The notes under the pieces: model-generated
Seen by the model: the letters and a program-made list of their open reading frames with translations, nothing else
Told to the model about the DNA's origin: nothing
The model's database searches: none
Position numbers and translations under genes: made by a program
Shown here: positions 4,863 through 22,947 of the stretch, piece by piece
Position numbering within the stretch: the first letter of the stretch is position 1
How the letters are laid out: the number at the start of each line of letters is the position of its first letter
Assembly: GCA_034926675.1 (NCBI GenBank)
Contig: JAYFQW010000037.1
Coordinates: 1 to 47,400, forward strand
Direction: 5' to 3'
From: Clostridia bacterium
GTDB taxonomy: Bacteria; Bacillota; DTU025
Length of the DNA: 47,400 bases

Positions 4863-4876
4863 TGGAGGAGCATGTC

Positions 4877-5755: not shown

Positions 5756-5758
5756 GCA

Positions 5759-6682
5759 ATGAAGGCCGTGATCTCGAGCGCGCCGGACCCTTCGATCAGC
5801 AGTTGTACTGCCAGGGAACGCAGGCAGCGCAGGCGTCGCGAACGTACGCAGATCGTTATGCTCATTACTATGGGCGCTGGACTTGTGGTGACACTCGGAT
5901 TCCTCCTGCTTATGCTGGGGTTCATTGGGTGGCGGGGTTTGCCCGTAGTCAACTGGGCATTCCTCACCCAGATGCCTCGCAGGGGTATGACTGAAGGCGG
6001 AATCCTTCCTGCGATTCTGGGCACGTTCTGGCTGACGGTCGGCTCAATGGCCGTCGCCGGGCTTCTCGGGGTTGCATCAGCCGTGTACCTTGCGGAATAT
6101 GCGCGGCAGGGATTCGCCCTGAGGCTGATCAGAACGGGCGTGGCCAACCTGGCGGGGGTTCCTTCGGTAGTGTTCGGCCTGTTCGGGCTGGCTGTGTTTG
6201 TAAAGGCCATGAGGCTCGGGGTTTCGATACTCTCCGGTGCACTTACCCTGGCGATAGTAGTGCTGCCCACGATCATCCGGTCGTCAGAAGAGGCGATAAT
6301 GGCTGTGCCAGGGTCGTATCGTGAGGCATCCCTCGCGCTTGGAGCGACCAAGTGGCAGACAGTTCGCTACGCGGTGCTGCCGTCGGCATTCCCGGGAATA
6401 CTCACTGGGTTCATACTATCGATTGCACGCGCGATGGGGGAAACTGCCCCCATAATGCTCACTGCGGCCACATTCTTCACGGCAAGCCTGCCGCACTCTC
6501 CCTTCGATGAGGTGCAGGCCCTTGCGTACCACATATTCGCGCTCGTTACTGAAGGGACTCGCCCGGAAGCACAGACGCCGATGGCTTTCGGAACCGCCGT
6601 TGTCCTCATGGCGATGGTGATTGGAATGAACCTCATAGCCACTTCGTTGAGAGCTCGTTACGAGAAGAAGCGCGCGCGCTGA
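5759..6682 (+). CDS. pstA: Phosphate ABC transporter permease PstA
   Basis: A 307-residue permease subunit with six membrane segments after a basic cytoplasmic N-terminus (ARERRQRRRRER at residues 18-29). The docking loop EASLALGATKWQTVRYAVLP and the segment SIARAMGETAPIMLTAA identify PstA. RBS-like GGGATGAG precedes ATG 5759. It is the last gene of the plus-strand half of the transport system. Its 3' end faces the 3' end of phoU 56 bases away, so the ATPase and PhoU are supplied from the opposite strand, which is unusual because pst genes normally form one operon. Confidence 0.93.
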   Translation: MKAVISSAPDPSISSCTARERRQRRRRERTQIVMLITMGAGLVVTLGFLLLMLGFIGWRGLPVVNWAFLTQMPRRGMTEGGILPAILGTFWLTVGSMAVAGLLGVASAVYLAEYARQGFALRLIRTGVANLAGVPSVVFGLFGLAVFVKAMRLGVSILSGALTLAIVVLPTIIRSSEEAIMAVPGSYREASLALGATKWQTVRYAVLPSAFPGILTGFILSIARAMGETAPIMLTAATFFTASLPHSPFDEVQALAYHIFALVTEGTRPEAQTPMAFGTAVVLMAMVIGMNLIATSLRARYEKKRAR

Positions 6683-6690
6683 TGCGTCAG

Positions 6691-6724
6691 GCCCGGGGAG
6701 ACCTCCCGGCGGCCTGGCGCCAGG
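6691..6724. terminator. Inverted repeats between convergent pstA and phoU
   Basis: An imperfect hairpin around CCGGGGAGACCTCCCGG (6693-6709) is followed by the 12-base palindrome CCTGGCGCCAGG (6713-6724). A two-way terminator is plausible between convergent genes, although no T-run is present. Confidence 0.35.
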
Positions 6725-6738
6725 TGAGCCCTCAAAGC

Positions 6739-7395
6739 TCAGTACGCCTCTCGCTGCCCGGTAACCATGTATATCACACGCTCTCCAATGTTCGTGGCGT
6801 GATCCGCGATCCGCTCCAGGAATCTCGCAACGAAGAGCAGATGCGCCGCCTGCAGGCTGACGTTCGAGTCGTGGCTCGTTACGATGAAGGTCATGAGTTC
6901 ATCAAACAGGATTTGGTAGGTTCCATCTACAATGTCATCGTTCTTGCAGGTAGCGCGCGCGAGATCTGCGTCGTGCGATACGAATGCGTCTAGGCTTCCC
7001 TTGATCATGGCCTGGGATAGCCGCGCCATCTTCGGGATATCGATCAACGGCTTGATTAGGGGCCGATTCCCGATCCTGATCACTGTCTCGCTTATGTTGA
7101 CCGCATGATCCCCGATTCGTTCCAGATCCGTTGCGATGAGAATCGCCGTGGTGACCAGTCTGAGGTCCTTCGCGAGCGGTTGTTGCAGTGCGAGGAGGTT
7201 CACGCACCGCTGTTCGATTCCAAGTTCGAGTTCGTCGATCCCTGCGTCGCCCGCTGCTGCATCGCGGGCCATAGCCGCATCTTGCTTCGCAAGGGCTTCC
7301 ACCGACCGGCGCACCGCATCCTCTACGACGCTGCCCATGCGTAGAATGTCCTGGTTCAAGGCTGCAAGCTCGCTCTCATATGCCTGCCTTCTCAC
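6739..7395 (-). CDS. phoU: Phosphate signalling protein PhoU
   Basis: A 218-residue cytoplasmic protein made of two three-helix PhoU repeats. The repeats' metal-binding signature is visible as ATDLERIGDHAVNISE near residues 88-103 and FLERIADHATNIGE near 193-206. PhoU links the Pst transporter to the PhoR kinase and represses the Pho response when phosphate is plentiful. The start is GTG at 7395, with AAGGAGG eight bases upstream; the nearest ATG overlaps a stop. It follows pstB with a 57-base gap in the same direction, so both are expected on the transcript driven by the Pho boxes at 8269-8306. Confidence 0.93.
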   Translation of the reverse strand: MRRQAYESELAALNQDILRMGSVVEDAVRRSVEALAKQDAAMARDAAAGDAGIDELELGIEQRCVNLLALQQPLAKDLRLVTTAILIATDLERIGDHAVNISETVIRIGNRPLIKPLIDIPKMARLSQAMIKGSLDAFVSHDADLARATCKNDDIVDGTYQILFDELMTFIVTSHDSNVSLQAAHLLFVARFLERIADHATNIGERVIYMVTGQREAY

Positions 7396-7452
7396 ATCCG
7401 ACTCCTCCTTGCGGGTTCTGATTGTGCGCTGCCCTTTCAGCCGTATCTGGCG

Positions 7453-8208
7453 CTATCCGAAACGGCCGGTAATGTAGTCCTCGGTTCGCTTGTCATGTGG
7501 TGTCTCGAAGATGCTTTTGGCATCGCCGTATTCTACAAGTTCGCCCATGAGGAAGAAGCCGGTCTTGTCCGACACTCGCGCGGCCTGCTGCATGTTATGG
7601 GTGACGATCACAATCGTGTACTTGCGCTTTAGCTCCGCCATGAGATCCTCTATGCTTGCGGTCGATATGGGATCGAGGGCAGAGCACGGCTCATCCATCA
7701 GCAGCACTTCGGGTTCAACCGCGAGCACCCTGGCGATGCACAGTCTCTGCTGCTGGCCTCCGGATAGCCGCAAGGCTGACTCTCTGAGCCTGTCCTTCAC
7801 CTCATCCCACAGTGCCGCGGCCCTGAGGCTCCGTTCCACCATGTCTGCCAGCCGCTGCCCTACGGCCATTCCATGGATCCGCGGACCGTAGGCCACATTG
7901 TCAAACACTGACATGGGGAACGGGTTGGGCCTCTGGAATACCATTCCTATGCGCTTGCGGAGCCTCACCAGGTCGGTTCCTGGCCCGTAGATGTCCTGGC
8001 CGTCGATCACTACACTTCCGCGGACTGATGCACCAGGCGCCAGGTCATTCATGCGGTTCAGCGTCCTGAGAAACGTGGACTTCCCACAGCCGGACGGGCC
8101 AATGAGCGCTGTGATCGTGTTCGCGTCAATTGAAATGGACATGTTCTTCAGGGCTTGATAGGCACCGTAGAAGACATCTAACGAAGTGGTGTGGATCTTA
8201 TCTGGCAT
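7453..8208 (-). CDS. pstB: Phosphate ABC transporter ATP-binding protein PstB
   Basis: A 251-residue ATPase. Walker [10 protein letters not shown] is at residues 37-45, the Q-loop at [10 protein letters not shown], the ABC signature at LSGGQQQR, Walker B at VLLMDEP with the D-loop SALD, and the switch His in [14 protein letters not shown] after Walker A and RPNPFPMS are typical of PstB. It energises PstCA phosphate import. The ATG at 8208 gives the usual family length; the frame continues upstream to 8331 but that part overlaps the Pho boxes and has no family similarity. A GGGGGG stretch serves as a loose RBS. Operon: pstB-phoU. Confidence 0.93.
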
Positions 8209-8225
8209 GTCGTCAGACACCCCCC

Positions 8226-8238
8226 ACAGATATTCTGT
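8226..8238. promoter_or_regulatory. Second copy of the XRE operator core, in the pstB leader
   Basis: ACAGATATTCTGT here is identical to the inner 13 bases of the operator at 412-430. It lies 18 bases before the pstB ATG, between the Pho boxes and the gene. The outer bases are not palindromic. Confidence 0.4.
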
Positions 8239-8268
8239 CACAGGCCTTTTGCACGCGCATTCCCGGCC

Positions 8269-8306
8269 TGTAAACAGTTGTTGTGGGGGTGTTAACCACG
8301 TGTTAA
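8269..8306 (-). promoter_or_regulatory. PhoP boxes upstream of pstB-phoU
   Basis: On the minus strand TTAACA (8306-8301), five bases, TTAACA (8295-8290), then ACAACA (8284-8279) and TTTACA (8274-8269). The spacing of 11, 11 and 10 bases matches the Bacillus PhoP box (TTAACA-N5-TTAACA) closely. This is the best Pho box in the window and implies that pstB-phoU has a PhoP-controlled promoter separate from phoPR. Confidence 0.75.
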
Positions 8307-8379
8307 GCAGTGACATAAGGGTTAGCCGCATTCGCGCATCCGCTATTCAGGGTCGGGGGAATTCCGCGTTCCGAATTGA

Positions 8380-10173
8380 CTACATGTGGCCGGAGGAGGC
8401 CCAAACCGGTACGGTGAAAGAGAAGGTGGATCCTCTGCCAGGCACGCTGCTGGCCCATGCCTCTCCGCCATGTCGCTCCACTATGTGTTTCACTATTGAG
8501 AGGCCGAGCCCGGTGCCTCCTAGCTGGCGTGATCGCGCTCGGTCCACGCGGTAGAATCTCTCAAATATCCTGGGAAGGTGTTCCACGGGAATGCCCACGC
8601 CCGTGTCTGCGACGTCCACGCGGACTGTAGCGCCCACGCACGACGCAGAGACTACGATGCTTCCGCCATCAGGGGTGTACTTTACTGCGTTTTCGAGCAG
8701 GTTCACCAGAACCTGCACAATGAGGGGTTCATCGCCCTGCACTGCGGGCAACTCAGCCGGGATCTGAAGGAGGACCTGGATGCTCTTGCCCTCGGCCTTG
8801 CTCTGCACGGCCTCCAATGCGCGTTGTGCGGCGTCTGAGATCATGACGGGCGATAGAGGCATTGAGGCATTAGTACACTCGAGCCTAGAGAGATCGAGAA
8901 GGTCAGAGATGATATGCGCTAGCCTGTCTGCCTCGCGGTCGATGAGTTCGAGGAATCGTCTCAGGGTTTCCCCGTCTTCCATTGCACCGTCCAACAGTGT
9001 ATCTGCAAATCCCTTGATTGATGTGACTGGGGTTCGAAGCTCGTGCGATACATTGGACACGAAGTCCTGTCGCACAAGTTCGAGCCGTCGAAGGTCTGTC
9101 ACGTCTTGGAGAACGGCGACTGCGCCCGCAACCCCAGAGCCGGAGGCGCCGGAAATGGGCGCCGCGTGGATTCTCAGGGCGAGAGCGCGCGGCGACTGAG
9201 CCGTGGTTTCTCGGATGTCATCACTTCCAGCTGAAGCAATCGCCAGCGAGTCTGCCAGATCTCGGTTGCGCACTATCTCCAGGATATGCCTGTTGAGGGC
9301 CTGGTCTGCTCTCACGCCGAACATGTCGCAGGCCGCCTGATTGACCAATAGGATTCTCTGGGATGCGTCGACGGCGACAACCCCATCTGCCATGGCAGAT
9401 AGAATGGTTTCCATCTGGTTCTTCTGCCTTGAGATCTCTCCGACGCTTTGCTCCAACTCCCGAGCCATGTGGTTGAACGCCTCAGCAAGCTGGCCTAGTT
9501 CATCGTTGCTCCTGGCTCTGACCTTGCGGCTGAAGTCGCCGCGGGCGATTGCGCGGGCTGCAGTGGCCATGTTCTTGAGAGGATCGCTTATGCCCTTAGA
9601 AAGCACCAGGCTGAGGGCGACTCCGGCGATGGCGGCAATTCCGACGGCGTTCAGCATGAAGCCCCTCACTGCTGCTGATGACTGCTCCACTTGAGCCAGG
9701 GAGGCCGCCACTCTCACATAGCCAATCACGTCGCCTGCGGACGTGGTTACCGGCACTGCGCAGTACCTAAGGCCGCTGCCCAGGCTCACGCTGTATCTTG
9801 TAATCAGCCCGACGCCTGACCGGTACGCCTGAAGAACCTCTGGCCGGTTACCATGGTTTTCCATTGAGACAGGATTGCCCTGAGAATCTCCTAGGACCGT
9901 TCCGTCTGCTGCGATAACCGTGACGCGAAGCCCTGTCTTGGCTCCTAAGCCATCAGCCATGAGATCGATGGCTGCGGGGCTCTGGGTCTGTACAAGCATA
10001 TTCCGCACTACCTCTGCGACGAGCATGGCGTCCGTGGTTAGTTCATGATCGGTCCTGGAGACGAGATGCCCGTGAATGGCGCTGGTGAGGCAACCAGTGA
10101 TGAGCAGTAACGAGATCATCACCACAAGAACGTACGTGGCGGACAGACGCTGGCGATATCCCAAGCGAACCAT
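8380..10173 (-). CDS. phoR: Sensor histidine kinase PhoR
   Basis: A 597-residue membrane kinase. Segment 12-34 is the first membrane helix, then an extracytoplasmic PAS/Cache-like sensor to about 165, a second helix at 172-192, HAMP at about 193-245, PAS at 250-360, and the HisKA dimerisation domain with phosphorylated His377 in SNVSHELRTP. The ATPase domain carries the N box (NLLENAVKYTP), G1 (ADTGVGIP), F box (FERFYRVD) and G2 (GGTGLGLSIV). Order and length equal PhoR/WalK kinases. It phosphorylates PhoP when phosphate is low. It starts 31 bases after phoP on the same strand; the Pho boxes of pstB lie just past its stop. Confidence 0.9.
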   Translation of the reverse strand: MVRLGYRQRLSATYVLVVMISLLLITGCLTSAIHGHLVSRTDHELTTDAMLVAEVVRNMLVQTQSPAAIDLMADGLGAKTGLRVTVIAADGTVLGDSQGNPVSMENHGNRPEVLQAYRSGVGLITRYSVSLGSGLRYCAVPVTTSAGDVIGYVRVAASLAQVEQSSAAVRGFMLNAVGIAAIAGVALSLVLSKGISDPLKNMATAARAIARGDFSRKVRARSNDELGQLAEAFNHMARELEQSVGEISRQKNQMETILSAMADGVVAVDASQRILLVNQAACDMFGVRADQALNRHILEIVRNRDLADSLAIASAGSDDIRETTAQSPRALALRIHAAPISGASGSGVAGAVAVLQDVTDLRRLELVRQDFVSNVSHELRTPVTSIKGFADTLLDGAMEDGETLRRFLELIDREADRLAHIISDLLDLSRLECTNASMPLSPVMISDAAQRALEAVQSKAEGKSIQVLLQIPAELPAVQGDEPLIVQVLVNLLENAVKYTPDGGSIVVSASCVGATVRVDVADTGVGIPVEHLPRIFERFYRVDRARSRQLGGTGLGLSIVKHIVERHGGEAWASSVPGRGSTFSFTVPVWASSGHM

Positions 10174-10204
10174 AGACTCCCGGCCTCCCTGATAGGCGCC
10201 TTAC

Positions 10205-10909
10205 TTACGCATGTTCCGAGAATCGGTAGCCCACACCATGCACTGTTTGAATGTACACAGGACGCGAGTCGTCCTTCTCGATCTTCTGTCGGAGACGGCG
10301 GACATGCACGTCCACTGTGCGCGTATTGCCTGCATACTCGTACCCCCAGACTCGTTCCAGGAGAAGCTCGCGGGAAAGCACTCGACCGCTGTTGGCAACG
10401 AGAAAACGGAGCAACTCCAGCTCCTTCGGTGTAACCTCGACCCGGCGTCCGCGGACCTCCAACTCGAACCTGTCAGCGTCAATCAGCACATCGCCTACGC
10501 GAATCCGGCTAGGCTCATCACCCCGTCCGCCTGGCGCGGAGTTCATGCTCTGCCGACGAAGCATTGCTTTCACTCTGGCCACAAGCTCGCGAGGGCTGAA
10601 CGGTTTCGTTACGTAGTCGTCTGCTCCCACTGATAGCCCGAGCACCTTGTCGAACTCCTCGGCCTTCGCGGTGAGCATGATGATTGGCACTGTCATCTCC
10701 CTGCGAAGCGTCTGGCAGACCTCAATCCCATCGATGCCAGGAAGCATCAGATCGAGGATGATGAGGTCAGGCCCATGGGTCCTCGCTTTCTGTAGGGCTT
10801 CCTCACCGTCATATGCTGCGTCAACGCAGAAACTCTCCCGCTCCAAGTTGAACTGAATCAGCTCTACGATCGAAGGCTCATCGTCGACTACCAGGACCCT
10901 CTTGGACAT
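10205..10909 (-). CDS. phoP: Response regulator PhoP (OmpR family)
   Basis: A 234-residue regulator. The receiver domain (1-120) has the acidic pair Asp9-Asp10, phosphoacceptor Asp53 in ILDLMLPG, Thr80 and Lys102 in TKPF. The C-terminal winged helix (about 135-232) shows LTPKE-type sequence EVTPKELELLRFL, then RVWGYEYAGNTRTVDVHVRRLRQKIE and QTVHGVGYRF, all typical of PhoB/PhoP. The RBS GAGGAGGTG precedes the ATG. It is the first gene of phoP-phoR. Placement next to pst genes with TTAACA boxes supports the phosphate assignment over other OmpR-type regulators. Confidence 0.92.
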   Translation of the reverse strand: MSKRVLVVDDEPSIVELIQFNLERESFCVDAAYDGEEALQKARTHGPDLIILDLMLPGIDGIEVCQTLRREMTVPIIMLTAKAEEFDKVLGLSVGADDYVTKPFSPRELVARVKAMLRRQSMNSAPGGRGDEPSRIRVGDVLIDADRFELEVRGRRVEVTPKELELLRFLVANSGRVLSRELLLERVWGYEYAGNTRTVDVHVRRLRQKIEKDDSRPVYIQTVHGVGYRFSEHA

Positions 10910-11097: not shown

Positions 11098-11853
11098 TCA
11101 GCGTTTCGCTGCGGGACAGATTCCGTCGTCTTCTTGGCAGAATGAGCACACGGGAGAGAGCATCTCTGCTGCCTTGATCGTGTACTCAATGCTGCTGGTC
11201 ACTGCATTCCCACTGTGAACGCTCACAAACGCCCTGATTGGCGCGTTGGCTGGGATCGGGCACACGACTGCCTCGAAATTGCCTGCATTGGCGCTGAGCG
11301 CCGCATCTTTGACACAGCATCCGCCTGCGATGTTGGCAAGACGCCTAGAGTCAACTGGGTTGCATGCGGGGCAATCGAGGCTGAAGAGCTTCACGTCGGC
11401 GTCGATGGGTGTGTTCCCGGTGTTTTGCACCTTCACGTTGATGGCATTGTTCTGCCCGGTGCGCACGAAGAACGGCCCTGTGGTGAGCGGCCCTGTCGAC
11501 GGCGGTCCACCGTCCGGCGGAGTCGGATTGTGCTCCTGAACCTCAACACTGCACACCCTGTCGAGGTCGATCACCATGAACTGAGCGGTCTCACTCTCTA
11601 CCATGCAGCCTCCGCTTACAGCCCTGATCAGGATTCCTGTGGAGTCGCACGGTGCAAGGCTCAGGAACCCGCAGCCTATCGAATGCAGATGCGCATTGCT
11701 GGCCTTCTTGCAGCAGCCGTCGCACTCGAACTCGACGGCCACACATAGGTCGTCAAGGTCTCCGCACCCACTGAGCGCTTTTGCCAGTGGATGCTGGCAG
11801 AAGACATTCTCATCACTTACCTCTGGGCCGGGAGAGGTATGATCTACGTCCAC
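11098..11853 (-). CDS. Cysteine-rich protein of unknown function
   Basis: A 251-residue protein with no signal peptide and about 20 cysteines, many in pairs or close sets (ECDGCCKK, DCPAC, GGCCVK, CSFCQ). The first 110 residues form one cysteine-rich part (FCQHPLAKALSGCGDLDDLC, IGCGF, APCDS). A proline/glycine/threonine linker (PPDGGPPSTGPLTTGP) follows, then a beta-rich segment with VRTGQNNAINVKVQNTGNTP, which resembles an Ig-like sandwich. Spore coat proteins of the CotY/CotZ kind are also cysteine-rich and lack signal peptides, but I cannot align this one to them with confidence. The start is GTG 11853 with AGGAGGG nine bases before it. It appears monocistronic. Confidence 0.6.
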   Translation of the reverse strand: MDVDHTSPGPEVSDENVFCQHPLAKALSGCGDLDDLCVAVEFECDGCCKKASNAHLHSIGCGFLSLAPCDSTGILIRAVSGGCMVESETAQFMVIDLDRVCSVEVQEHNPTPPDGGPPSTGPLTTGPFFVRTGQNNAINVKVQNTGNTPIDADVKLFSLDCPACNPVDSRRLANIAGGCCVKDAALSANAGNFEAVVCPIPANAPIRAFVSVHSGNAVTSSIEYTIKAAEMLSPVCSFCQEDDGICPAAKR

Positions 11854-12121: not shown

Positions 12122-12970
12122 ATGAAAAACCATGCAGTATTCGGCCAGCACATGAGCCAATGTGGGAAACCCGTAGCGTTGGTTCTCTGTGCCATCGCGG
12201 TATTCGTGGCGTTCTCGGGTATCGCAGCAGCCTCGCAGGCAGCGCCTGAGCTATTCTCTGAGATGCTGTCCGGACCGATCTGGACCGTCATCTACGAGGC
12301 AGCGTCTGTCCATCCTGACTCGGCCCACCCGGGCGCTTTTGTTGAGGGGACGCCGGTGCGTGCAAACCTTAGGCTGTTCGACTCGGCAGGTTGGCTGATC
12401 CAGGACATTGCATACTCGGTGGATGGATCCGCGTCGGTCAAGTCCATCACTTCCGTGGATGGTCAGGGGATTCCAGTCAGCGTGCTCCACTATTCCGGCA
12501 AGAACGCTCTCATGGCGAGGGAGTCCATCCAGCGATCTGCAGCGGACGATGGCGGTCTCAGCTTCGTGCGAACAGTCTGGGCGGTCGATGGAACCCTGAC
12601 GAGCACGACTGTGGTTCGCTGTGACCGCTCCGGGCGCGAGATCTCAAGGGAGGTTCGCACGGCAGATGGCGTCGTAGCAGTTACGATGCTCAACGAGTAC
12701 GATCCTAACGGCCGGTTGCGCTCGCGGAAGGAGTATGGTCCTGCTGGGGCGCTAACAACGGACACCGAGTGGGACTACGATCAGTCCAATGGCCTGCTGG
12801 TTTCAGAGATGCGTAAGGGGCCTGAGGGCGAGTTCACATCGACGTTCGAACTCGACCTGGATGGGAACTGGATTGTGAAACGCACCTCCAGGATGATCAG
12901 GCTTCAAGATGGCAGCGTCGTGTTGGAGCCGAACGAGATCATCTACAGATCCATCACTACACATGGCTGA
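12122..12970 (+). CDS. Secreted YD-repeat-like protein, paralogue 1
   Basis: A 282-residue exported protein. Residues 18-40 are the hydrophobic core of a signal peptide ending ASQA. The rest is beta-rich with loose YD/RHS-type repeats: LFDSAGWLIQDIAYS, CDRSGREISREVR, YDPNGRLRSRKEY and YDQSNGLLVSEM. The C-terminal half aligns along its length with the product at 46019 (shared GREvSRE, YD-x-GR, WxYD, GPxGxF, EPxExxYR), so the two are paralogues. It is not a toxin-type RHS protein because it is short and has no toxin domain. It could bind cell wall carbohydrate or a surface partner, but function is unknown. The RBS AGGAGG stands ten bases before the ATG. Confidence 0.7.
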   Translation: MKNHAVFGQHMSQCGKPVALVLCAIAVFVAFSGIAAASQAAPELFSEMLSGPIWTVIYEAASVHPDSAHPGAFVEGTPVRANLRLFDSAGWLIQDIAYSVDGSASVKSITSVDGQGIPVSVLHYSGKNALMARESIQRSAADDGGLSFVRTVWAVDGTLTSTTVVRCDRSGREISREVRTADGVVAVTMLNEYDPNGRLRSRKEYGPAGALTTDTEWDYDQSNGLLVSEMRKGPEGEFTSTFELDLDGNWIVKRTSRMIRLQDGSVVLEPNEIIYRSITTHG

Positions 12971-13080: not shown

Positions 13081-13767
13081 ATGAAATCAGGTTCAAAGTG
13101 TCTGTCTCTGTCTCTGTCGCTAGTTGCGTTGGTTCTGATGCTGGCCGCTATTGCCCTTGCACCGGCGATGTCGGCCGCAGGCGCCGCCGCTATCCCCAAG
13201 GCTTCACAGCCTGTGCTTATGGTGAGTGCGGGGCAGGGCAATGGAGTCCTCGTCGCGACTGCTCTCGCCGATAGGATAAAGCTCCCCTACGACTACTCTG
13301 ATGTCCCCACCGCGAAGCACGTTGCGGCAGGCGCCGGCCTGGAAGGGTTCGTTGAGGGCGATGGTGCGCACAGAGAGCTGAAGTCGGGAAAGCCGAAGGG
13401 AACTCCCTACCAGACCGTGTTCCTTGTCATGGGCGCAAGCCTCAAGGGAATGGGAGCGTCGGGGCTCTCCCTGAACCAGGAGGTAGCACGGCTTAAGGAT
13501 GTCATCAAGTACTGCCGGGACAAGAAGATTCTCCTTGTCGGCATGCACGTTGAGGGCAAGGCCATGCGCGGCAAGCCTGGGTCGGACAATGAGGCAATCA
13601 TCGATGCCGTCGCTCCATTCTGCGACTACCTTATCGTGATGAACACGAGCAACCAGGACGGCAAGTTCACACAGATCGGCAAGGAGAAGAACATCCCAGT
13701 GAGCGTGGCCGAGAAGACCAGCGAGATCCAGACCATATTCCAGACGATGTTCGGCCTTGCCAAGTAG
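13081..13767 (+). CDS. Exported DUF6305-like protein
   Basis: A 228-residue protein with a long hydrophobic signal peptide (residues 8-35, ending SAAGAAA). The mature part looks like a Rossmann-type alpha/beta fold: PVLMVSAGQGNGVLVATAL at 43-61, then VFLVMGASLKGMGASG, KILLVGMHVEGKAMRGKPG and DYLIVMNTSNQDG. From memory this pattern belongs to DUF6305, a family without assigned function. AGGAGG is nine bases upstream. The next gene, a TRAP-type permease, starts 38 bases after its stop, so an extracytoplasmic binding or accessory subunit for that permease is the most economical idea (inference). It does not resemble DctP-type solute-binding proteins. Confidence 0.6.
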   Translation: MKSGSKCLSLSLSLVALVLMLAAIALAPAMSAAGAAAIPKASQPVLMVSAGQGNGVLVATALADRIKLPYDYSDVPTAKHVAAGAGLEGFVEGDGAHRELKSGKPKGTPYQTVFLVMGASLKGMGASGLSLNQEVARLKDVIKYCRDKKILLVGMHVEGKAMRGKPGSDNEAIIDAVAPFCDYLIVMNTSNQDGKFTQIGKEKNIPVSVAEKTSEIQTIFQTMFGLAK

Positions 13768-13805
13768 TGGATCAGGTTGCTTGGCCCTACGAAAGGAGAA
13801 TGGGC

Positions 13806-15089
13806 ATGTTCCTTAAAGTCTCAGTAGTGCTCGCGGTGATGGTTGGAGCTTACATCATCGCAAAGGGCCCGTTGAAGCTGTCGGTGGAGCTATCTATGCT
13901 CATTGCCGGGCTGGCGGGCGCAGTGGCCAGCGGAAACTACCTGCCACTGCGGCATATCGCAGAAGGGTCGGTCACATATCTCGACTTGGCCCTCATTTTC
14001 TTCACAGCCACTCTCTTCATGAACATAATCAAGGAGTCTGGCGGCCTCAACTACGCTGTCAGAGGGATTCTCACGGAGTTCGGGAACAATAGACCGGTTG
14101 CTCTGATTCTTCTGATGTTCCTCATGCTCATACCTGGGGCTCTCACAGGCTCTGGGAGCGTTTCGGTTTTGGTCTCGGGAGGCGCCGTCGCCATGGCCCT
14201 CTCGCATCTGGGGATCTCCAGGCAGAGAATTGCAGCCATGATATTCATCCTTGCCGGGCTTGCCGCTGTGGCGCCTCCTGTGAGCGTTTGGGCCATGATG
14301 ACATGTGCAGGAACTGCGATTCCCTACGTGGGCTTCGAGCTTCCGCTGGGCGTTCCAGTACTGCTGCTTGGGGTGTTCACGTCGTTCTACTATGGCCTCC
14401 GCCGCACTGAGAGGCTTGGCGACTCAGTGAAGGAGCTTCCCGATGTTCCAACCGGGCAGAGCGGAGTGCGCGTGTTCGTTCCTTTCGCAGTCGTGTTTGC
14501 GCTTATCATTGCATCTCGGCTTTGGCCTTACAAGATGCCAATTCTCGGCCTGCCTCTGATATTCATGATCGGCGCCGTGGTTGCCCTGCTGATTAGCCCT
14601 AAGAAGGTGGACCTTCTGAGGGTGTCAAACGAGACTGTGCGGCAGCTGCTTCCTCTGCTTACCACGGTCACAGTCATTGGAATCCTGATTCAGTTGATGA
14701 CCGTGACTGGAGTCCGAGGCCTGCTCTCTTATTGGGTGATCGCAATGCCGCTGGTGCTCATATTTGCGCTCCTGCCCATTACCATCCCGCTGTCGGAGGG
14801 AGTGCTCGGGTTCGGTGGCGCAGCTGTTATCGGGATCCCACTTATCTGGACGTTCAACTCAGTTGGAGTACATCCGACGATAGCCTTGGCAGGGCTTTCG
14901 CTGTTGTGGTTCCTAGGTGATGCTCTGCCGCCGACAGCCATCATTGGCAGACTCACTGTACAGACTGTGGACTACAAAGGTTCCTATTGGACCTTCCTGA
15001 AGACATGCTGGGCGCCATGGGCCGTCATAACGGTCGTGGGCACATTAATGGTGGTTTTCAGCAAGCAACTGGCGTTCCTCGTCATATAG
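13806..15089 (+). CDS. TRAP-type (DctM-like) large permease
   Basis: A 427-residue integral membrane protein with 11-12 hydrophobic segments. The layout follows the ion-transporter superfamily to which DctM belongs: a first half with LTGSGSVSVLVSGG and LAAVAPPVSVWAMM, the latter equivalent to the IPPS motif of DctM, and a second half with EGVLGFGGAAVIGIPL and LGDALPPTAIIG, again with a PP loop. The substrate is not evident; a small organic anion such as an acyl amino acid would fit the neighbour enzyme at 15299. There is no DctP or normal DctQ nearby. ATG 13806 was chosen because AAAGGAG is seven bases upstream; longer starts at 13767 and 13800 are less likely. Confidence 0.75.
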   Translation: MFLKVSVVLAVMVGAYIIAKGPLKLSVELSMLIAGLAGAVASGNYLPLRHIAEGSVTYLDLALIFFTATLFMNIIKESGGLNYAVRGILTEFGNNRPVALILLMFLMLIPGALTGSGSVSVLVSGGAVAMALSHLGISRQRIAAMIFILAGLAAVAPPVSVWAMMTCAGTAIPYVGFELPLGVPVLLLGVFTSFYYGLRRTERLGDSVKELPDVPTGQSGVRVFVPFAVVFALIIASRLWPYKMPILGLPLIFMIGAVVALLISPKKVDLLRVSNETVRQLLPLLTTVTVIGILIQLMTVTGVRGLLSYWVIAMPLVLIFALLPITIPLSEGVLGFGGAAVIGIPLIWTFNSVGVHPTIALAGLSLLWFLGDALPPTAIIGRLTVQTVDYKGSYWTFLKTCWAPWAVITVVGTLMVVFSKQLAFLVI

Positions 15090-15119
15090 CGGGGGGCGCA
15101 TCTACTGGAGGTGAGGCGG

Positions 15120-15272
15120 ATGTCGATCATAACGATTCTGTACTACGCAATATCGGCCTACCTCGCGGCGCTGTGCGTCTGGAACTTCGTGCGCGAGAAG
15201 AGACTTCAGGAGGCGGCCATGTACGCGGTGGTCCTGGTCCCGCTGCTCTTGAGGGTATTCCGCATTAAGTGA
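15120..15272 (+). CDS. 50-residue membrane protein
   Basis: A short gene with an excellent RBS (GGAGGTGAG, ending six bases before the ATG) between the permease and the metalloenzyme. The peptide starts MSIITILYYAISAYLAALCV, carries the charged stretch REKRLQE near residues 24-30, and ends with a second hydrophobic segment (YAVVLVPLLLRVF), so two membrane helices are likely. It is too short for a DctQ subunit (usually about 160 residues with four helices) but sits where a small subunit would be. Codon use and spacing (30 bases after the permease, 26 before the next gene) favour a true gene. Confidence 0.7.
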   Translation: MSIITILYYAISAYLAALCVWNFVREKRLQEAAMYAVVLVPLLLRVFRIK

Positions 15273-15298
15273 CAGGCGCGAGGATGGAGGGTTAAGGA

Positions 15299-16456
15299 AT
15301 GTCACGAAATGCCCTGGGCAAGCTGATCATAGCGGTGGTCGCCCTCATGGTTCTCGTGGTTGGCGGCCGCGAGCTCTACATTCACCGGCGCTACAAAGAG
15401 CCGGTCGTTCTAGGACCTGGAGTCTCAGATGTGCGAAAGCTCTCCGATTACTTCGCTCCTCTGAAGGGCACTGCCAACGATTCCACCGTGTACGTGCTCG
15501 ACGGTGAGCGTGAGGGCGGCAATGTGCTGATTCTGGGCGGAAGCCATCCGGCAGAGGTGGCAGGAACGCTCGCAGCGATTGTCATGGTGGAGAACGCCCG
15601 CGTGCAGGCGGGAAAGGTGTTCGTCATCCCTCACATGAACCGGAGTGGATCGACGGGCACTCAGCCGTCTGGAGGCTATCCGCTCTACTACGATATCAAG
15701 ACCGATTTCGGAGCTAGGAAGTTCAGGCTTGGAGATAGGGTTACCAACCCTCTCGACCAGTGGCCCGACCCGGATGTATATGTTCACTATCCGAGCGGTC
15801 AGTCTCTGTCGTATGTTGAGATCCGGAATATCAACAGGTGCTGGCCGGGGAGGCCAGATGGCACTGTGACTGAGAAGACGGCCTATGCGGCCATGGAGCT
15901 CATACGCAAGGAGAACGTTAACGTCGTGATAGACCTCCATGAGGCAGAACTGCTCTATCCGGTCACAAACTGCATCGTAGCTCCTTCTAAGAGTACTTCG
16001 ATTGCTACCCTGGCAGCTATCAACCTGTGTGGATCGACTTTCGACATCCACACCGAGCCGTCTCCAGGCGGCTATCATGGTCTCACCCATCGCGAGGTGG
16101 GGGACCACTCAGATGCGTACCCGTTCCTTATCGAGGCGCCTGAGCCCTTCCTCGACCAGCCGACCGGGCCCAAGACCGTAGACCTCCTGGTGAATGGGGT
16201 TGACGAGTTCCTCCTATCCCTCGGGAAGCGTGATCTTCTGTTCGTCGATTATGACGAGACGGGCAAGCCCATGAAGCTCAGAGTTGGTCGGCACCTTACG
16301 ACTATGCAGGCCCTGTTCGAGGAATGGAACAACTTCAAGCCAGATCTCGAGATCGCAATTGAGTCGCCTGACTACGACGACCTGATGCAGAACGATGTAG
16401 GCGCCTACCTGCACGATCCTGCATCGGTTGACCAGTCGAAGGTGGCATACGACTAG
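15299..16456 (+). CDS. Membrane-anchored aspartoacylase/desuccinylase-like zinc enzyme (M14 fold)
   Basis: A 385-residue protein. Residues 9-24 are an N-terminal membrane anchor or uncleaved signal. The catalytic domain shows the zinc motif GGSHPAEVAG (His83, Glu86), the substrate arginine region RNINRCWPG (176-184), and the third zinc ligand in IDLHEAE (His214). These are the hallmarks of the succinylglutamate desuccinylase/aspartoacylase branch of M14. FLIEAPEPF near 258-266 may supply the catalytic Glu. It probably cleaves an amide bond of an acyl amino acid or peptide outside the membrane. It closes the operon that begins at 13081, pairing a hydrolase with a permease. A GC-rich hairpin follows. 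ATG 15299 has GGAGG upstream. Confidence 0.75.
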   Translation: MSRNALGKLIIAVVALMVLVVGGRELYIHRRYKEPVVLGPGVSDVRKLSDYFAPLKGTANDSTVYVLDGEREGGNVLILGGSHPAEVAGTLAAIVMVENARVQAGKVFVIPHMNRSGSTGTQPSGGYPLYYDIKTDFGARKFRLGDRVTNPLDQWPDPDVYVHYPSGQSLSYVEIRNINRCWPGRPDGTVTEKTAYAAMELIRKENVNVVIDLHEAELLYPVTNCIVAPSKSTSIATLAAINLCGSTFDIHTEPSPGGYHGLTHREVGDHSDAYPFLIEAPEPFLDQPTGPKTVDLLVNGVDEFLLSLGKRDLLFVDYDETGKPMKLRVGRHLTTMQALFEEWNNFKPDLEIAIESPDYDDLMQNDVGAYLHDPASVDQSKVAYD

Positions 16457-16596: not shown

Positions 16597-18249
16597 GTGT
16601 TTAGGAAGAGTCCATTAGTTGCTCTACTTGTGGCCGTTATTCTCGCAGTGTCTTCGGTCGCGGCTTTCGCATGCACGTCCATACTGGTTCCGCCCAGCTC
16701 CTCAGTTGATGGCTCAGCCTCGGTAACCCACACGTGTGATTCCGGCTCGTCCCCGTTCGAAGTAATTAAGGTTCCGGCTGCCGATTGGGCGCCGGGGACC
16801 ATGACTGATGTGCTGGACCTGCCCCAGTTCACCAGCGGCAATCAGATGCACGTTGCGGCCGGTGAGCCCACAGGCAACAAGATTCCGCAGGTTGCACACA
16901 CTTACGGGTACATAAGGGCGCTGTTTGGCGTGATCAATGAGAAACAGGTGTCCATCGGCGAAACCACGATCAGTGGACGCAGAGAGTCTCAGAATCCCGC
17001 CGGTTTCTTCGACATCACCAACCTTTCAATGTACGCCATGGAGCGGGCCGCTACCGCTCGCGAGGCCGTGAAGGTGATGGGAGAGCTGGGTGAGAAGTAC
17101 GGATATAAGGACGGCGGCGAGGAGCTCTCAGTTGCCGACACCAAGGAGTGCTGGGTATTCGAGATGGTCGGACCCGGCCCCCTGTGGCAACAAGGCGACG
17201 AGGGCCCTGGTGCATACTGGGTTGCGCAGCGGGTCCCCGAGGGTCACGTGTCTGCCTCTGCGAACAACGCGGTGATCCGCGAGATCGACTTCAACGATCA
17301 CGAGAACTTCATGTTTGCACCTGGAATCGTTGAATACGCCGTGTCCAAAGGCTGGTACAAGCCGGAATCCGGCGAACCCTTCAATTGGAGGAAGCACTTC
17401 TGCAACGCCACTAGCTTCGAGACCAGTGGTCGCCGCGTCTGGCGTGTGTTCTGCCTGGCGGCGCCGTCCCTCGCCGAAAAGCTCGACGAGAGGGATCTGC
17501 CGTTCTCGGCGCCTGTCGACAAGAAGCTCTCGATCAGCGACATAAACGCGATTCAACGTGACCACTACGAGGGGACCAAGTTCTATGGCGGCAACTCCCT
17601 CGCGGCTGGCCCCTTCAACAACCCCAGGCGCTATCGCGGACTGGGCTTCAAGGTGGATGGCAAGAACTACTCCTGGGAGAGAATGATCGCTCAGGTCCAA
17701 TGCGAGTACAGCATCTGCACCCAATCCCGCGGGTGGCTGCCTGACGAGATTGGCGGCCTCGTGTGGTATGGCGCGACGAATCCGGACCTTACCTGCTACG
17801 TTCCGCTGTATGCGTCGATGACCAGCGTATCGCCTGCTATGAACACTAAGGCAGGGTCGCATCAGGAGTTCACGCGCGATTCCTACTGGTGGGCGATATC
17901 CGCGGTGAGCACCTATGCGGATCTGAAGTGGTCCTACATGAGCAAGGACATCAAGGCGAATATCGACAAGTACGAGGGTCATGCTCTTCGTACCCAGGGC
18001 GCCATCGAGGCGGCAGCCCTTGAGCTCCACAAGCAGGATCCAAAGCTTGCAGTGGAATTCCTTACAAACTACGCGAACAGGAACGTGGAGACCGTGCGTG
18101 ATGCATGGTGGCAACTGCTCGACACTTTGATCTGGAAGTACAACATGGGCTTCGTTACTGAGGACGGCAGGGTCAGGTCGGTTAGTTACCCCGAAGCGTG
18201 GCTGAGGAAGGTCGTCGGCAGCGGCGAGCCCGGCCACTGGGCGAAGTAG
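16597..18249 (+). CDS. Secreted C69-family dipeptidase, copy 1
   Basis: A 550-residue N-terminal-nucleophile hydrolase. Residues 1-25 are a signal peptide (core LVALLVAVILAVSSVAAFA) and Cys26 follows at once in ACTSILV, the expected catalytic nucleophile of MEROPS family C69. DGSASVTHT is the conserved block after it. Other family segments are EKQVSIGETTISGR, FDITNLSMYAMERA, VFEMVGPGPLW and WWAISAVSTYADLKW. It should cleave dipeptides outside the cytoplasm. GTG 16597 was chosen: AAGGAGGAG stands seven bases before it, and it gives a length equal to the two copies downstream. An in-frame ATG at 16513 would add a charged tail in front of the signal peptide. Confidence 0.88.
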   Translation: MFRKSPLVALLVAVILAVSSVAAFACTSILVPPSSSVDGSASVTHTCDSGSSPFEVIKVPAADWAPGTMTDVLDLPQFTSGNQMHVAAGEPTGNKIPQVAHTYGYIRALFGVINEKQVSIGETTISGRRESQNPAGFFDITNLSMYAMERAATAREAVKVMGELGEKYGYKDGGEELSVADTKECWVFEMVGPGPLWQQGDEGPGAYWVAQRVPEGHVSASANNAVIREIDFNDHENFMFAPGIVEYAVSKGWYKPESGEPFNWRKHFCNATSFETSGRRVWRVFCLAAPSLAEKLDERDLPFSAPVDKKLSISDINAIQRDHYEGTKFYGGNSLAAGPFNNPRRYRGLGFKVDGKNYSWERMIAQVQCEYSICTQSRGWLPDEIGGLVWYGATNPDLTCYVPLYASMTSVSPAMNTKAGSHQEFTRDSYWWAISAVSTYADLKWSYMSKDIKANIDKYEGHALRTQGAIEAAALELHKQDPKLAVEFLTNYANRNVETVRDAWWQLLDTLIWKYNMGFVTEDGRVRSVSYPEAWLRKVVGSGEPGHWAK

Positions 18250-18386: not shown

Positions 18387-20051
18387 ATGAGGCGCAACCC
18401 TGGCTCATGTTTCAAGGGCAGACTCATAACCGTGGCCGTGTGCATTCTGGTTCTGGCGGTTTCGTCGGCGGCATTCGCGTGCACCTCCGTACTGGTTTCC
18501 CCGGGTGCGTCAGTAGATGGCTCCGCCTCTGTTACCCAAACAGCCGACTGCGGCATGTGCGCCTTTGAGATCGAGAAGATCCCAGCGAAGGACTGGCCCG
18601 AGGGCGCCACAGTTGAGGCGCCCTACCTTCCCCAGTTCACAGGCGGCTACCAGATACATGACGTGATGAAGCCCACAGGGAAGTTCATCCCACAGGTTGC
18701 CCATACCAATGGCTACATCAAAGGGATCTTCGGGATGATCAACGACAAGCAAGTGGGAATCGGCGAGACAACCACGAGCAACAGGCCTCAATCGAAGAAC
18801 CCCAACGGCATTGTCGATATTACCAACCTTTCGATGCTCGCAATGGAACGGGGCAACAGCGCCCGAGAGGCAATCCAGACCATGGGCGACGTTGCGGTGA
18901 CGTACGGGTACAAGGATGCCGGGGAAGCGCTGGCAGTATCCGATTCACATGAAGCGTGGCTGTTCGAGATCTCAGGCCCCGGCCCCCTGTGGGAGCAGGG
19001 CGATGTGGAACCCGGGGCTTTCTGGATTGCGCAGCGTGTGCCCGATGGGCATATCGCGGCTTGCTGCAACAACGCGGTGATCGATGTAATCGATTTCGAC
19101 GATCACAGCAATTTCATGTATGGTCCTGGCATCAAGGAGTACGCGATAGAGAAGGGTTGGTACGATCCGGCGAGTGGAGCCGAGTTCAGCTGGAGAAAGC
19201 ACTTCTGTAACGCGACGTCCTTCGTCACATGCGGTCGCCGCGTGTGGCGCATATTCGGCCTGGCTGCCCCATCGCTCGCGGGCACTCTGGATGAGACTAA
19301 CCTTCCGTTCTCGGTGCCGGTCGACAAGAAGCTATCCATAGCCGACATCGCTGCGATCCACCGTGACCACTACGAGGGCACGCCCTACGATAGCACCAAG
19401 GGCGTAATGTCGGGCCCATGGGGTAATCCGCGGTCGAAAGGCACTCCGCCGGCGATCGACGGGAACAGGTACGCGTTCCAGCGAAGGATCGCCATTCCAG
19501 GATGCGAATACAGCATCATTGCCCAGTCGCGCGCTTGGCTTCCTGATGCCATAGGGGGCATTCTGTGGTATGCTCCTTCGAACCCGGATGGCAGCAACTA
19601 CGTGCCGATTTACAACTCCGTGACCAACATCTCGGAGTGCCTGAACACAAAGGCTGGCGACCACCACACCTTCACGCGGACCTCCTACTGGTGGGCGGTG
19701 TCGGCCGTGAACACCTACGCAGACCTGAAGTACTCCTACATCATCAAGGACATTCAGGCGACTAGGGAGCAGTACGAAGGGCTCGCCATCAAAATGCAGG
19801 CAGCCATCGACACTGCGGCGCTCCATCTGTACGAGAACGATCCAAAGCTTGCGACGGAGTTCCTGACCGACTACTGCAACCGTAATGTTGAGTCTGCCCG
19901 AGATGGGTACTGGGATCTGCTCGACAGGCTCATGTGCAAGTACAACGCCTGGACAATCACGGAAGACGGCAAGATAACCACTCCGGCCCTTTCCGAGGAT
20001 TGGGTCAGGATGATGATCCAGTTCGACACTGGTGACTGGTACAAGCGGTAG
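18387..20051 (+). CDS. Secreted C69-family dipeptidase, copy 2
   Basis: A 554-residue paralogue of the genes on either side. The signal peptide ends SSAAFA and the nucleophile is Cys32 in ACTSVLV. Conserved blocks: DGSASVTQTADCG, DKQVGIGETTTSNR, DITNLSMLAMERG, LFEISGPGPLW, RKHFCNATSF and WWAVSAVNTYADLKY. It lines up with copy 1 almost without gaps, including the HFCNATSF segment that copy 3 has lost. GAGGAGG lies nine bases before ATG 18387. It is likely to be a periplasmic or extracellular dipeptidase with a different preference from its neighbours (inference). A hairpin follows. Confidence 0.88.
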   Translation: MRRNPGSCFKGRLITVAVCILVLAVSSAAFACTSVLVSPGASVDGSASVTQTADCGMCAFEIEKIPAKDWPEGATVEAPYLPQFTGGYQIHDVMKPTGKFIPQVAHTNGYIKGIFGMINDKQVGIGETTTSNRPQSKNPNGIVDITNLSMLAMERGNSAREAIQTMGDVAVTYGYKDAGEALAVSDSHEAWLFEISGPGPLWEQGDVEPGAFWIAQRVPDGHIAACCNNAVIDVIDFDDHSNFMYGPGIKEYAIEKGWYDPASGAEFSWRKHFCNATSFVTCGRRVWRIFGLAAPSLAGTLDETNLPFSVPVDKKLSIADIAAIHRDHYEGTPYDSTKGVMSGPWGNPRSKGTPPAIDGNRYAFQRRIAIPGCEYSIIAQSRAWLPDAIGGILWYAPSNPDGSNYVPIYNSVTNISECLNTKAGDHHTFTRTSYWWAVSAVNTYADLKYSYIIKDIQATREQYEGLAIKMQAAIDTAALHLYENDPKLATEFLTDYCNRNVESARDGYWDLLDRLMCKYNAWTITEDGKITTPALSEDWVRMMIQFDTGDWYKR

Positions 20052-20165: not shown

Positions 20166-21833
20166 GTGAGAGCAAGGCCATTTTCGCATTACAGATCCTG
20201 CCATGTCGTGATGGCTGTCTGCGTTCTCGTCCTATCGCTTTCCTCGGCGGCATTCGCTTGCACCTCCGTACTGGTCACGCCAGGCGCGTCGGTTGACGGT
20301 TCGGCAACGGTGACTCATACGGCAGACTGTGGATCCTGCGCGTTTGAGATCGAGAAGGCGCCTGCAAAGGACTGGGCGCCCGGTTCCATGGTGGAAGTGC
20401 CCTATCTGCCCCAATGGACCGGTGGGCAGAGGATATCCGATGCTTCCAAACCGACAGGCGCGATGATACCGCAGGTGGGCCACACCTATGGGTACATCAA
20501 GGGCCTCTTCGGCATGATCAACGAGAAACAGGTTGGAATAGGCGAGACCACAATAGGGGGCCGCGCTGACTTCGGCAACAAGAACGGCATGTTCGACATA
20601 ACCAACCTCTCAATGCTTGCGATGGAGAGGGGCGCTACCGCTCGAGAGGCGATTCAGGTCATGGGAGACCTGGCCGTGAAGTATGGCTACAAGGATTCCG
20701 GTGAGGAGCTGTCGGTATCCGATACCAAGGAGTGCTGGGTATTCGAGATCGTCGGCCCGGGGGCTCTGTGGTCCCCTGGCGATGAGGAGCCCGGAGCGTT
20801 CTGGGCGGCTGCTCGGGTTCCTGATGGCCATGTAGCGGTGTCATCCAACTCCTCAGTGATACCGGAGATCGACTTCGACGACCAGGAGAGCTTCATGGTA
20901 GGCCCTGGCATCCGCGAATTCGCAGAGGAAAAGGGCTGGTGGACCCCGGAGTCGGGCAAGAAGCTCAACTGGCGTTTCGACTTCTGCGACAGAGTCAGGC
21001 CCGACTACAGCTACAGGAGGATCGTGCGGATATTCAGCCTCGTGGCGCCACAGGCCAGCGCGTCGATAACTGAGGCAAACCCGCCGTTCTCGATCAAGGC
21101 CGAGCGCAAACTCGCGATGGCGGACATCGCCAAGCTTCACCGAGATCACTACGAGGGAAGCCAGTTCGACCAGACAACGAGCATTACGGCTGGTCCATGG
21201 GCTAACCCACGCCGCTATCCCGGATGGAACTTCAAGGTGGATGGCAAGGCCTATTCGTTCAACAGGACCATTTCGGCGATAGGTTGCGAGTATGTCATCA
21301 TGACGCAGTCCCGAGGGTGGCTGCCCAACGAAATCGGCGGAGTGCTCTGGTACGGTCCAGCGGTCTCCGCCACCACGTGCTTCGTACCCTTCTACAACAG
21401 CGTGTCCAAGATTGCTGACTGCATCGGAGAGAAGTCAGGATCTCACATGGAGTTCACCCGCGAGTCGCTTTGGTGGGCGGTATCCACCGTGAACACCCTG
21501 GCCGATCTCAGGTGGTCCCTGATGATTACGGACATCAACGTCATGCAGGATGCATGGGAAGGCAAGGCCATGCGGGAGCAGGCAGCCGTCGATGCCCAGG
21601 CGTTGGAACTCTACAGTAAAGATCCTGCGCTCGCGTGCGCGTTCCTCACAGACTACTGTGGCGATAACGCATATGCAGTGCGGGACGCCTGGTGGGCCTT
21701 CCTGGATAAGCTGCTATGGAAGTACAATGCGGGATTCATCAACGATGGCACGAAGATCTCGTCACCTGGATATCCGGAGGCCTGGCTGAAGAAGGTCGTC
21801 GGCCTCGACGAAGCAGATCACTACGCGAGGTAG
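20166..21833 (+). CDS. Secreted C69-family dipeptidase, copy 3
   Basis: A 555-residue paralogue. The signal peptide ends SSAAFA and the nucleophile is Cys32 in ACTSVLV; DGSATVTHTADCG follows. Other blocks: EKQVGIGETTIGGR, FDITNLSMLAMERG, VFEIVGPGALW and WWAVSTVNTLADLRW. It differs from copies 1 and 2 in the middle: WRKHFCNATSF becomes WRFDFCDRVRPDYSYRR, so the substrate pocket may differ. The start is GTG 20166 with AGGAGG seven bases before it. It ends the dipeptidase cluster with a 15-bp hairpin. Confidence 0.88.
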   Translation: MRARPFSHYRSCHVVMAVCVLVLSLSSAAFACTSVLVTPGASVDGSATVTHTADCGSCAFEIEKAPAKDWAPGSMVEVPYLPQWTGGQRISDASKPTGAMIPQVGHTYGYIKGLFGMINEKQVGIGETTIGGRADFGNKNGMFDITNLSMLAMERGATAREAIQVMGDLAVKYGYKDSGEELSVSDTKECWVFEIVGPGALWSPGDEEPGAFWAAARVPDGHVAVSSNSSVIPEIDFDDQESFMVGPGIREFAEEKGWWTPESGKKLNWRFDFCDRVRPDYSYRRIVRIFSLVAPQASASITEANPPFSIKAERKLAMADIAKLHRDHYEGSQFDQTTSITAGPWANPRRYPGWNFKVDGKAYSFNRTISAIGCEYVIMTQSRGWLPNEIGGVLWYGPAVSATTCFVPFYNSVSKIADCIGEKSGSHMEFTRESLWWAVSTVNTLADLRWSLMITDINVMQDAWEGKAMREQAAVDAQALELYSKDPALACAFLTDYCGDNAYAVRDAWWAFLDKLLWKYNAGFINDGTKISSPGYPEAWLKKVVGLDEADHYAR

Positions 21834-21904: not shown

Positions 21905-21937
21905 GGAGAGGCCCCTGCGAAACGCAGGGGCCTCTCC
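21905..21937 (+). terminator. Strong hairpin at the end of the C69 cluster
   Basis: Perfect 15-bp stem GGAGAGGCCCCTGCG / CGCAGGGGCCTCTCC with loop AAA. It is followed by GTGGGTG, not by a T-run. It lies between convergent genes and can serve both strands. Confidence 0.7.
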
Positions 21938-22015: not shown

Positions 22016-22891
22016 CTAGAACCTTGCGGAAATGGATATCCTGTGGCTATCAGGCAGGATGCTGTGGGTCTGGTACGAGTAGTCGATACTCAGCACCTGT
22101 ACAGAGAAGCCTGCGCCGGCGGTGAGCGAGGTTTGCCCTGCTCCCCATGAACCGCCTGCTCGGAGTGCCACCGGCCCGAACTGATACTCAGCGCCTGCCT
22201 TCAGCGTCGCTTGGTTCTGGTACACCGCATCGGCGGCCAGGAGAAGGCCTTTCATCGGGCGGAACGCCACTCCGAGCCCGAAGGACCTCTCGAACGGGTC
22301 GGATTCGCCATCTTTGTATTTCACGCTGCCTAGCAGATTCCGGCCCACCACGCCTACGCTCATCCATGGCATTGGGGTCCATAGTGCGCCCACATCTCCA
22401 GTGATTCCCCAGCCAGAGGAAGCAGGCAGGCTCTGGTAATAGTATTTCAGCGCCCCGCCTAGGCTCAGGTTCGGAATCACCTCGAACCCACCGCCGGCCA
22501 CGGCGGTAAGGTCCGCCACTCCGAAAACCCCTGTCACGTTGGCGAATTCGTCGGTCTCTTCAATTCCCGATGCGTCGAGCCTAAGCAGTCCAACTCCGAT
22601 GTTGCGCTGGGAGTACCCTACGGCCATGTAGTTTGCCGCCCTGAACTGGCTGGTGTATAGAGACGTCAGGCAGCGCCTCTGCATCAGCCCAAGGCCAGCA
22701 GGGTTGTAGTATATGGCCGCACCATCATCGGCGACTGCGATGTTGGCGCCTCCCATTCCAAGGGCGCGGGCGCCCATTCCGATATCCATCATCGCGGCCG
22801 TGCCCACCGGGTTCGTCGAGGCCATGGTCATCGTGCTACAAGCTAGCACAGCTGCCACAGCCAGGACGGCCGCGGTCATTTTGAATCGCAT
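22016..22891 (-). CDS. PorV/UPF0164-like outer-membrane beta-barrel protein
   Basis: A 291-residue exported protein with a signal peptide (residues 1-25, ending TMAS). Just after it comes GMGARALGMGGANIAVADDG and YYNPAGLG, the fingerprint of the PorV/PorQ and UPF0164 barrel family. The rest alternates in short amphipathic beta strands (LSLGGALKYYYQ, SFGLGVAFRP, LKAGAEYQFG, VALRAGGSWG), and the last residue is Phe (ISISARF), as in most outer-membrane barrels. ATG 22891 was chosen because AAGGAGG is eight bases before it. It follows the giant protease on the same strand, 110 bases away, with a hairpin between. PorV acts in type IX secretion in Bacteroidota; whether this one does is open. It implies an outer membrane. 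Confidence 0.75.
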   Translation of the reverse strand: MRFKMTAAVLAVAAVLACSTMTMASTNPVGTAAMMDIGMGARALGMGGANIAVADDGAAIYYNPAGLGLMQRRCLTSLYTSQFRAANYMAVGYSQRNIGVGLLRLDASGIEETDEFANVTGVFGVADLTAVAGGGFEVIPNLSLGGALKYYYQSLPASSGWGITGDVGALWTPMPWMSVGVVGRNLLGSVKYKDGESDPFERSFGLGVAFRPMKGLLLAADAVYQNQATLKAGAEYQFGPVALRAGGSWGAGQTSLTAGAGFSVQVLSIDYSYQTHSILPDSHRISISARF

Positions 22892-22947
22892 TTGCTCAGC
22901 CTCCTTCATACTTCTGCGGCGCCATGTCAGTTCATCCATCGATCCTA

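Follow-up and report, generated by a model that had tools for sequence, protein, structure and literature searches.

The window analyzed here, a stretch of 47,400 nucleotides from Clostridia bacterium (assembly GCA_034926675.1, contig JAYFQW010000037.1), carries a cassette of four genes encoding an exported DUF6305 protein, a permease, a membrane protein of 50 residues and an AstE/AspA/DoeB-class zinc hydrolase, followed by three genes for C69 family dipeptidases (Table 1). We find that this module is real, widespread and apparently undescribed, and that it is a variant of known secondary-transport systems. With moderate confidence, we read it as a module that couples the hydrolysis of gamma-glutamyl compounds or peptides to uptake. 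Secreted Ntn-hydrolases (C69 here, gamma-glutamyltransferase, Ggt, in a sister clade) would cut these compounds outside the inner membrane, the outward-facing, membrane-anchored zinc hydrolase would take part in the same cutting, and the 50-residue protein would be the small subunit of a DctM/INDY-type elevator permease that imports the freed amino acid or small peptide, presumably powered by an ion gradient. DUF6305 would be an extracytoplasmic helper of the zinc enzyme that either binds and presents the ligand or senses it, and that elsewhere would serve a histidine kinase. Gene content and order, conservation, the switch of partner enzymes, a DUF6305 fusion, the active-site residues and the predicted folds of two of the proteins are shown here, and we infer the direction of import, the ion coupling, the substrate and the physical contacts among the proteins. 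An initial annotation, based on the letters of the window and its open reading frames, had proposed that an acyl amino acid or peptide is cut at the surface and a product imported; cutting outside and importing the product fits the neighboring genes, with a gamma-glutamyl compound or peptide being a more likely substrate than a generic N-acyl amino acid.

The evidence that carries the module is its conservation. At least 545 relatives of the window permease were present in a scan of one genome per species, and the best 80 loci, which span about ten phyla by record titles, were examined; together with loci of the phylum to which the window belongs, they give 116 distinct permeases. Downstream genes were counted for the 98 permeases with at least 1.9 kb of downstream sequence, and neighbors within 9 kb for the 54 that have 6 kb of sequence on each side (full-flank loci). 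Loci were picked by similarity to the window permease, with some neighborhoods found via DUF6305, and distant relatives are under-sampled. The small-protein gene directly follows the permease gene in 98/98 loci, and the zinc enzyme comes next in 94/98 (93 by the script rule plus L080, which has an odd open reading frame start), with the remaining four showing the order zinc enzyme, DUF6305, zinc enzyme, Ggt, permease, small protein (two zinc-enzyme copies upstream). Furthermore, DUF6305 lies within 9 kb of the permease in all 54 full-flank loci, and C69 or Ggt in 50 of them. The first, second and third of these four counts rule out a chance neighborhood and answer the check set at the outset, namely whether the four genes co-occur across genomes. 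The hosts of the best 80 loci are Bacillota, Aminicenantes/Acidobacteriota, Gemmatimonadota, KSB1, Latescibacterota, Thermotogae (Kosmotogales), Spirochaetes, Atribacteria, Bacteroidetes and one Deferribacteres bin. The originally listed composition is thus right for the four conserved genes and incomplete as a description of the set, to which C69 or Ggt, Pgs genes in about a third of full-flank loci and a histidine kinase in some loci are to be added. In the literature searched, which left out most subscription papers, we found neither a published description of the set nor a publication naming DUF6305; within that scope, the claim that no system of this composition has been described holds.

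With respect to the hydrolases, PF03577 matches all three C69 genes, none of which reaches the equivalog cut-off of NCBIfam, and an ACTS motif with the mature Cys nucleophile follows the signal peptide in C69 dipeptidase 1. Ggt replaces the C69 dipeptidases in some cassettes. In a maximum likelihood tree of 69 permeases, 12/12 members of one clade have Ggt nearby (3 of these also C69), and the other clade mostly has C69 as its partner. Partner labels change nine times on this tree versus 22 times in shuffles, with 0/200 shuffles as low, a comparison that leaves the effect of shared ancestry in place. The simplest reading of permease clades that split by hydrolase is that the permease takes the product released by the enzyme.

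The zinc hydrolase (P0004) scores 30.9 bits against AstE_AspA_cat (cut-off, 25). Its zinc-motif residues H83, E86 and H214 are invariant in the alignments, as are R176, N177, R180 and E279, and the motifs align with those of DoeB. The enzyme is like the AstE/AspA/DoeB amidohydrolases in its catalytic domain and zinc-motif residues, with DoeB among its nearest solved relatives, and unlike them in being membrane-anchored and probably outside the inner membrane, since DoeB-like enzymes are cytoplasmic. Two observations suggest that the anchored enzyme probably faces outward: some paralogues have signal peptides, and the N terminus carries a charge bias. In two alignments its mean charge is +1.4, versus 0.0 and +0.7 beyond the helix, and the bias is ambiguous when the window protein is taken by itself.

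The cassette is linked in many relatives to poly-gamma-glutamate. PgsB, PgsC and TIGR04332 lie within 9 kb in 19/54 full-flank loci, with PgsB and PgsC in the sampled loci confirmed by NCBIfam equivalogs; in five loci (L121, L122, L124, L133, L134), the trio shares the strand of DUF6305 and immediately precedes it, and in L112 and L175 the trio is inside the operon. Across 299 genomes, all from the window's own phylum, DUF6305 is found in 20/28 genomes with PgsC versus 17/271 without it (Fisher p 4e-15, uncorrected for ancestry), and 14 of the 20 genomes having both carry them within 10 kb of each other. The occurrence of the module beside a poly-gamma-glutamate synthesis cluster in many lineages suggests poly-gamma-glutamate turnover. 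Compared with the known systems (PgsBCAE or CapBCADE with Ggt/CapD, PgdS or PghP/PghL), the cassette is alike in that PgsB, PgsC, Ggt and a zinc hydrolase accompany it in many relatives. PghP and PghL are poly-gamma-glutamate hydrolases that are also zinc carboxypeptidase-like (PMC6506827). Their family differs from that of the window enzyme, which is AstE/DoeB-like and not PF05908, and the cassette further differs in adding a permease, DUF6305 and the small protein, as well as in the window copy having no Pgs genes nearby. A bolder version of the uptake reading, which we put forward tentatively and consider rather doubtful, is a multi-part transporter of a new class, in which DUF6305 and the zinc hydrolase form a unit in place of the binding protein. 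This unit would cleave a gamma-glutamyl polymer or peptide at the membrane, passing the product to the elevator permease with its 50-residue subunit; depolymerization and import would then be coupled in an ancient system found across about ten phyla.

The same Pgs trios, upstream on the same strand or in the operon, and the anchoring or trimming of poly-gamma-glutamate by Ggt-family enzymes in known systems would also fit a machine for making or maturing the polymer, which would trim, release or anchor it at the surface while the permease exports or recycles a by-product. We consider this explanation unlikely, because several genomes hold many cassettes but a single PgsC (G008 has nine DUF6305 matches), indicating that most copies serve something else, because no Pgs genes lie within 9 kb in about two thirds of the full-flank loci, and because elevator carriers of the DctM fold move small solutes, not polymers.

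The window permease has no Pfam match at cut-off, and its relatives pass the DctM cut-off. Its structure model (pLDDT 80) matches TRAP QM, INDY and AbgT structures best, all about equally, and its alignment with profiles of the genome's true DctM proteins is colinear and weak (hhalign probability 31%). The permease is therefore a carrier of the DctM/INDY/AbgT superfamily that is remote from canonical DctM, so that its first description as DctM-like is right in a remote sense. DctM/INDY-type carriers move dicarboxylates, and AbgT moves aminobenzoyl-glutamate. AbgT with AbgAB (p-aminobenzoyl-glutamate use) and INDY/DASS resemble the cassette in having a carrier of the same broad superfamily, and in abg an amide hydrolase is encoded together with the transporter; unlike these systems, the cassette has hydrolases that are exported or predicted to face outward, and conserved extra subunits.

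No match to DctP or DctQ was found near the cassette, in agreement with the initial annotation, and the permease is not fused as QM. The genome's two complete DctP/DctQ pairs (contigs C2 and C3) each adjoin their own DctM, and so does a partial DctP at a contig end (C76), which rules out a borrowed partner, the case that had been named as refuting a new system. A divergent TRAP transporter, with DUF6305 as a novel solute-binding protein, the small protein as a reduced DctQ and the enzymes as incidental neighbors, is nevertheless suggested by the fold of the permease and its remote DctM similarity, and by an exported DUF6305 near the permease in all full-flank loci. Like the cassette, whose permease resembles DctM remotely, TRAP systems (DctPQM, TAXI-TRAP; TC 2.A.56) encode a DctM-fold secondary carrier in the same operon as one exported and one small membrane protein. 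We judge this explanation quite improbable, since incidental neighbors would not recur as constantly as these enzymes do (50/54 and 94/98) and since DUF6305 consists of one alpha/beta domain, lacks the two-lobed fold of binding proteins and is found both in loci that have no permease and as a fusion with the zinc enzyme. The cassette further differs from TRAP in having neither DctP/TAXI nor a 4-helix DctQ, a 50-residue protein and a single-domain DUF6305 being present instead, and in including hydrolases in the set.

The window DUF6305 protein scores 129 bits against PF19823 (cut-off, 25), and S49, G51, Q52, the G118-LKGMG run, R163, E171 and D193 are invariant in the alignment. Its AlphaFold model (pLDDT 91.8) shows one alpha/beta domain behind a signal peptide, with no fold match in the PDB at E<=1e-3, binding-protein folds included; weak PDB matches to SGNH esterases and to FtsZ are not believed. 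In three genomes of one family, DUF6305 is fused to an AstE-type catalytic domain behind a signal peptide (PF19823, about 1e-51 to 1e-54; PF24827, about 1e-13 to 1e-17), which places both in one compartment and suggests one job. One locus (L175) holds the fusion alongside the full set, in the order PgsB, PgsC, TIGR04332, fusion, histidine kinase, response regulator, DUF6305, permease, small protein, zinc enzyme, C69, C69. Among 14 inspected DUF6305 loci without the permease, 11 (L173, L179, L180, L182, L184, L188-L193) have a histidine kinase with a multi-helix membrane sensor domain and a response regulator, and this sensor domain is homologous to one in Ggt-type cassettes (hhalign E 3.6e-24). 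Permease-free DUF6305/kinase loci also adjoin apparent oligopeptide ABC transporter genes. Given its single-domain fold, its fusion to the zinc enzyme and its permease-free occurrence beside a histidine kinase, DUF6305 more likely binds or senses a ligand as a partner of enzyme and kinase than acts as the DctP substitute that had been proposed. A unit devoted mainly to sensing, in which DUF6305 reports peptide or polymer breakdown to the kinase and the permease is a co-sensor, would account for the kinase and regulator in the 11 permease-free loci and for the shared sensor domain, yet is very improbable, as such a kinase was not found in most C69-type cassettes, that of the window included.

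Alignments and hydropathy give the 50-residue protein a single membrane helix, a second hydrophobic helix that is short, and a conserved LLRxxRxK motif at its end, in which it differs from the 4-helix DctQ. The earlier call of two helices is therefore fair, although the second is short and would not necessarily add a full membrane span. Y8, Y9, P41, L44 and R45 are invariant in 32/32 aligned rows from many phyla, and this conservation rules out a noise reading frame. The protein alone reaches no Pfam cut-off; a match to DUF6768 is below the family cut-off, and weak matches of the small-protein profile to GPR155 in the PDB were taken as chance.

Several points weigh against the uptake reading and its gamma-glutamyl substrate. 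The direct match between permease and DctM profiles is weak. C69 enzymes are known for ordinary dipeptides, an activity that fits plain peptide use as well as it fits poly-gamma-glutamate. In addition, PgsB and PgsC are absent near the window's cassette, which thus shares no operon with them, the genome's single PgsB-PgsC-TIGR04332 operon being on another contig (C46), and the majority of full-flank loci noted above likewise have no nearby Pgs genes. Finally, neighbor counts and genome co-occurrence are uncorrected for shared ancestry, and the sampled loci lean to the window's clade.

The module gives families without a function (DUF6305, the 50-residue protein and the kinase sensor domain) a common, testable context. 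If the uptake reading is true, use of gamma-glutamyl compounds or peptides as nutrients would be widespread among anaerobic and uncultured bacteria (Aminicenantes, Acidobacteriota, Gemmatimonadota, Kosmotogales, Bacillota and others), a dedicated salvage system would be linked to the synthesis of poly-gamma-glutamate outside Bacillus, and a secondary carrier would have hydrolases, not a binding protein, as its extracytoplasmic partners.

Table 1. Features of the cassette and its flanks (window positions)
Feature	Position	Strand	Basis or remark
P5, exported protein without assigned function	12122..12970	+	precedes the set; candidate optional accessory, operon membership uncertain
DUF6305 protein (P0001)	13081..13767	+	PF19823 E 1.4e-37; signal peptide, then single alpha/beta domain
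Permease, 429 aa	13800..15089	+	remote relative of TRAP DctM, INDY (DASS) and AbgT elevator carriers
50-aa membrane protein (P0003)	15120..15272	+	homologues after permease in 98/98 loci; alignments; hydropathy
Membrane-anchored AstE/AspA/DoeB-like zinc hydrolase (P0004)	15299..16456	+	AstE_AspA_cat E 2.4e-7; probably faces outward
Exported C69 family dipeptidase 1	16597..18249	+	PF03577 E 1.3e-53; alternative GTG start at 16513 possible
Exported C69 family dipeptidase 2	18387..20051	+	PF03577 E 4.2e-55
Exported C69 family dipeptidase 3	20166..21833	+	PF03577 E 9.9e-54
15-bp hairpin, probable operon end	21905..21937	+	fold -38.5 kcal/mol, z -7.05; without T run

The four core genes lie where they had first been placed, on one strand and with gaps of 32, 30 and 26 nt. 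The zinc-enzyme gene, taken initially as the end of the operon, is not its last gene, since the three C69 genes follow, a pattern scan of the gaps found no terminators between operon genes, and the strong hairpin comes only about 70 nt 3' of the third C69 gene. Homologues of P5 are found near the cassette in four relatives (L035, L037, L038, L047; weak in L046), and its only Pfam match, to RHS_repeat, is sub-threshold. The source genome has two more cassettes, on contigs C36 (L050:7013-12146) and C59 (L049:4380-12991), one of the Ggt type and one of the C69 type. An Omp85 gene suggests an outer membrane, so that "exported" here probably means periplasmic. A single viral_contigs scan found nothing to indicate a viral origin of the region.

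Elsewhere in the window, the minus strand encodes a PorV/PorQ-family protein at 22016-22939, which scores 101 bits in NCBIfam against a cut-off of 90. PorV/PorQ proteins belong to the outer membrane and are linked to type IX secretion, and the genome here is of a Bacillota-like lineage. At 23002-32382 on the same strand lies the gene for a subtilase of 3126 aa, which carries many PKD and Ig-like domains and is probably a giant protease of the cell surface. Upstream of the cassette, genes for phosphate uptake and control occupy 4011-10909, with a PstS-like protein and a permease on the plus strand and, on the minus strand, a sensor kinase and regulator as well as PhoU and an ABC ATPase, and a cysteine-rich protein of 251 aa without a Pfam match is encoded at 11098-11853 on the minus strand.

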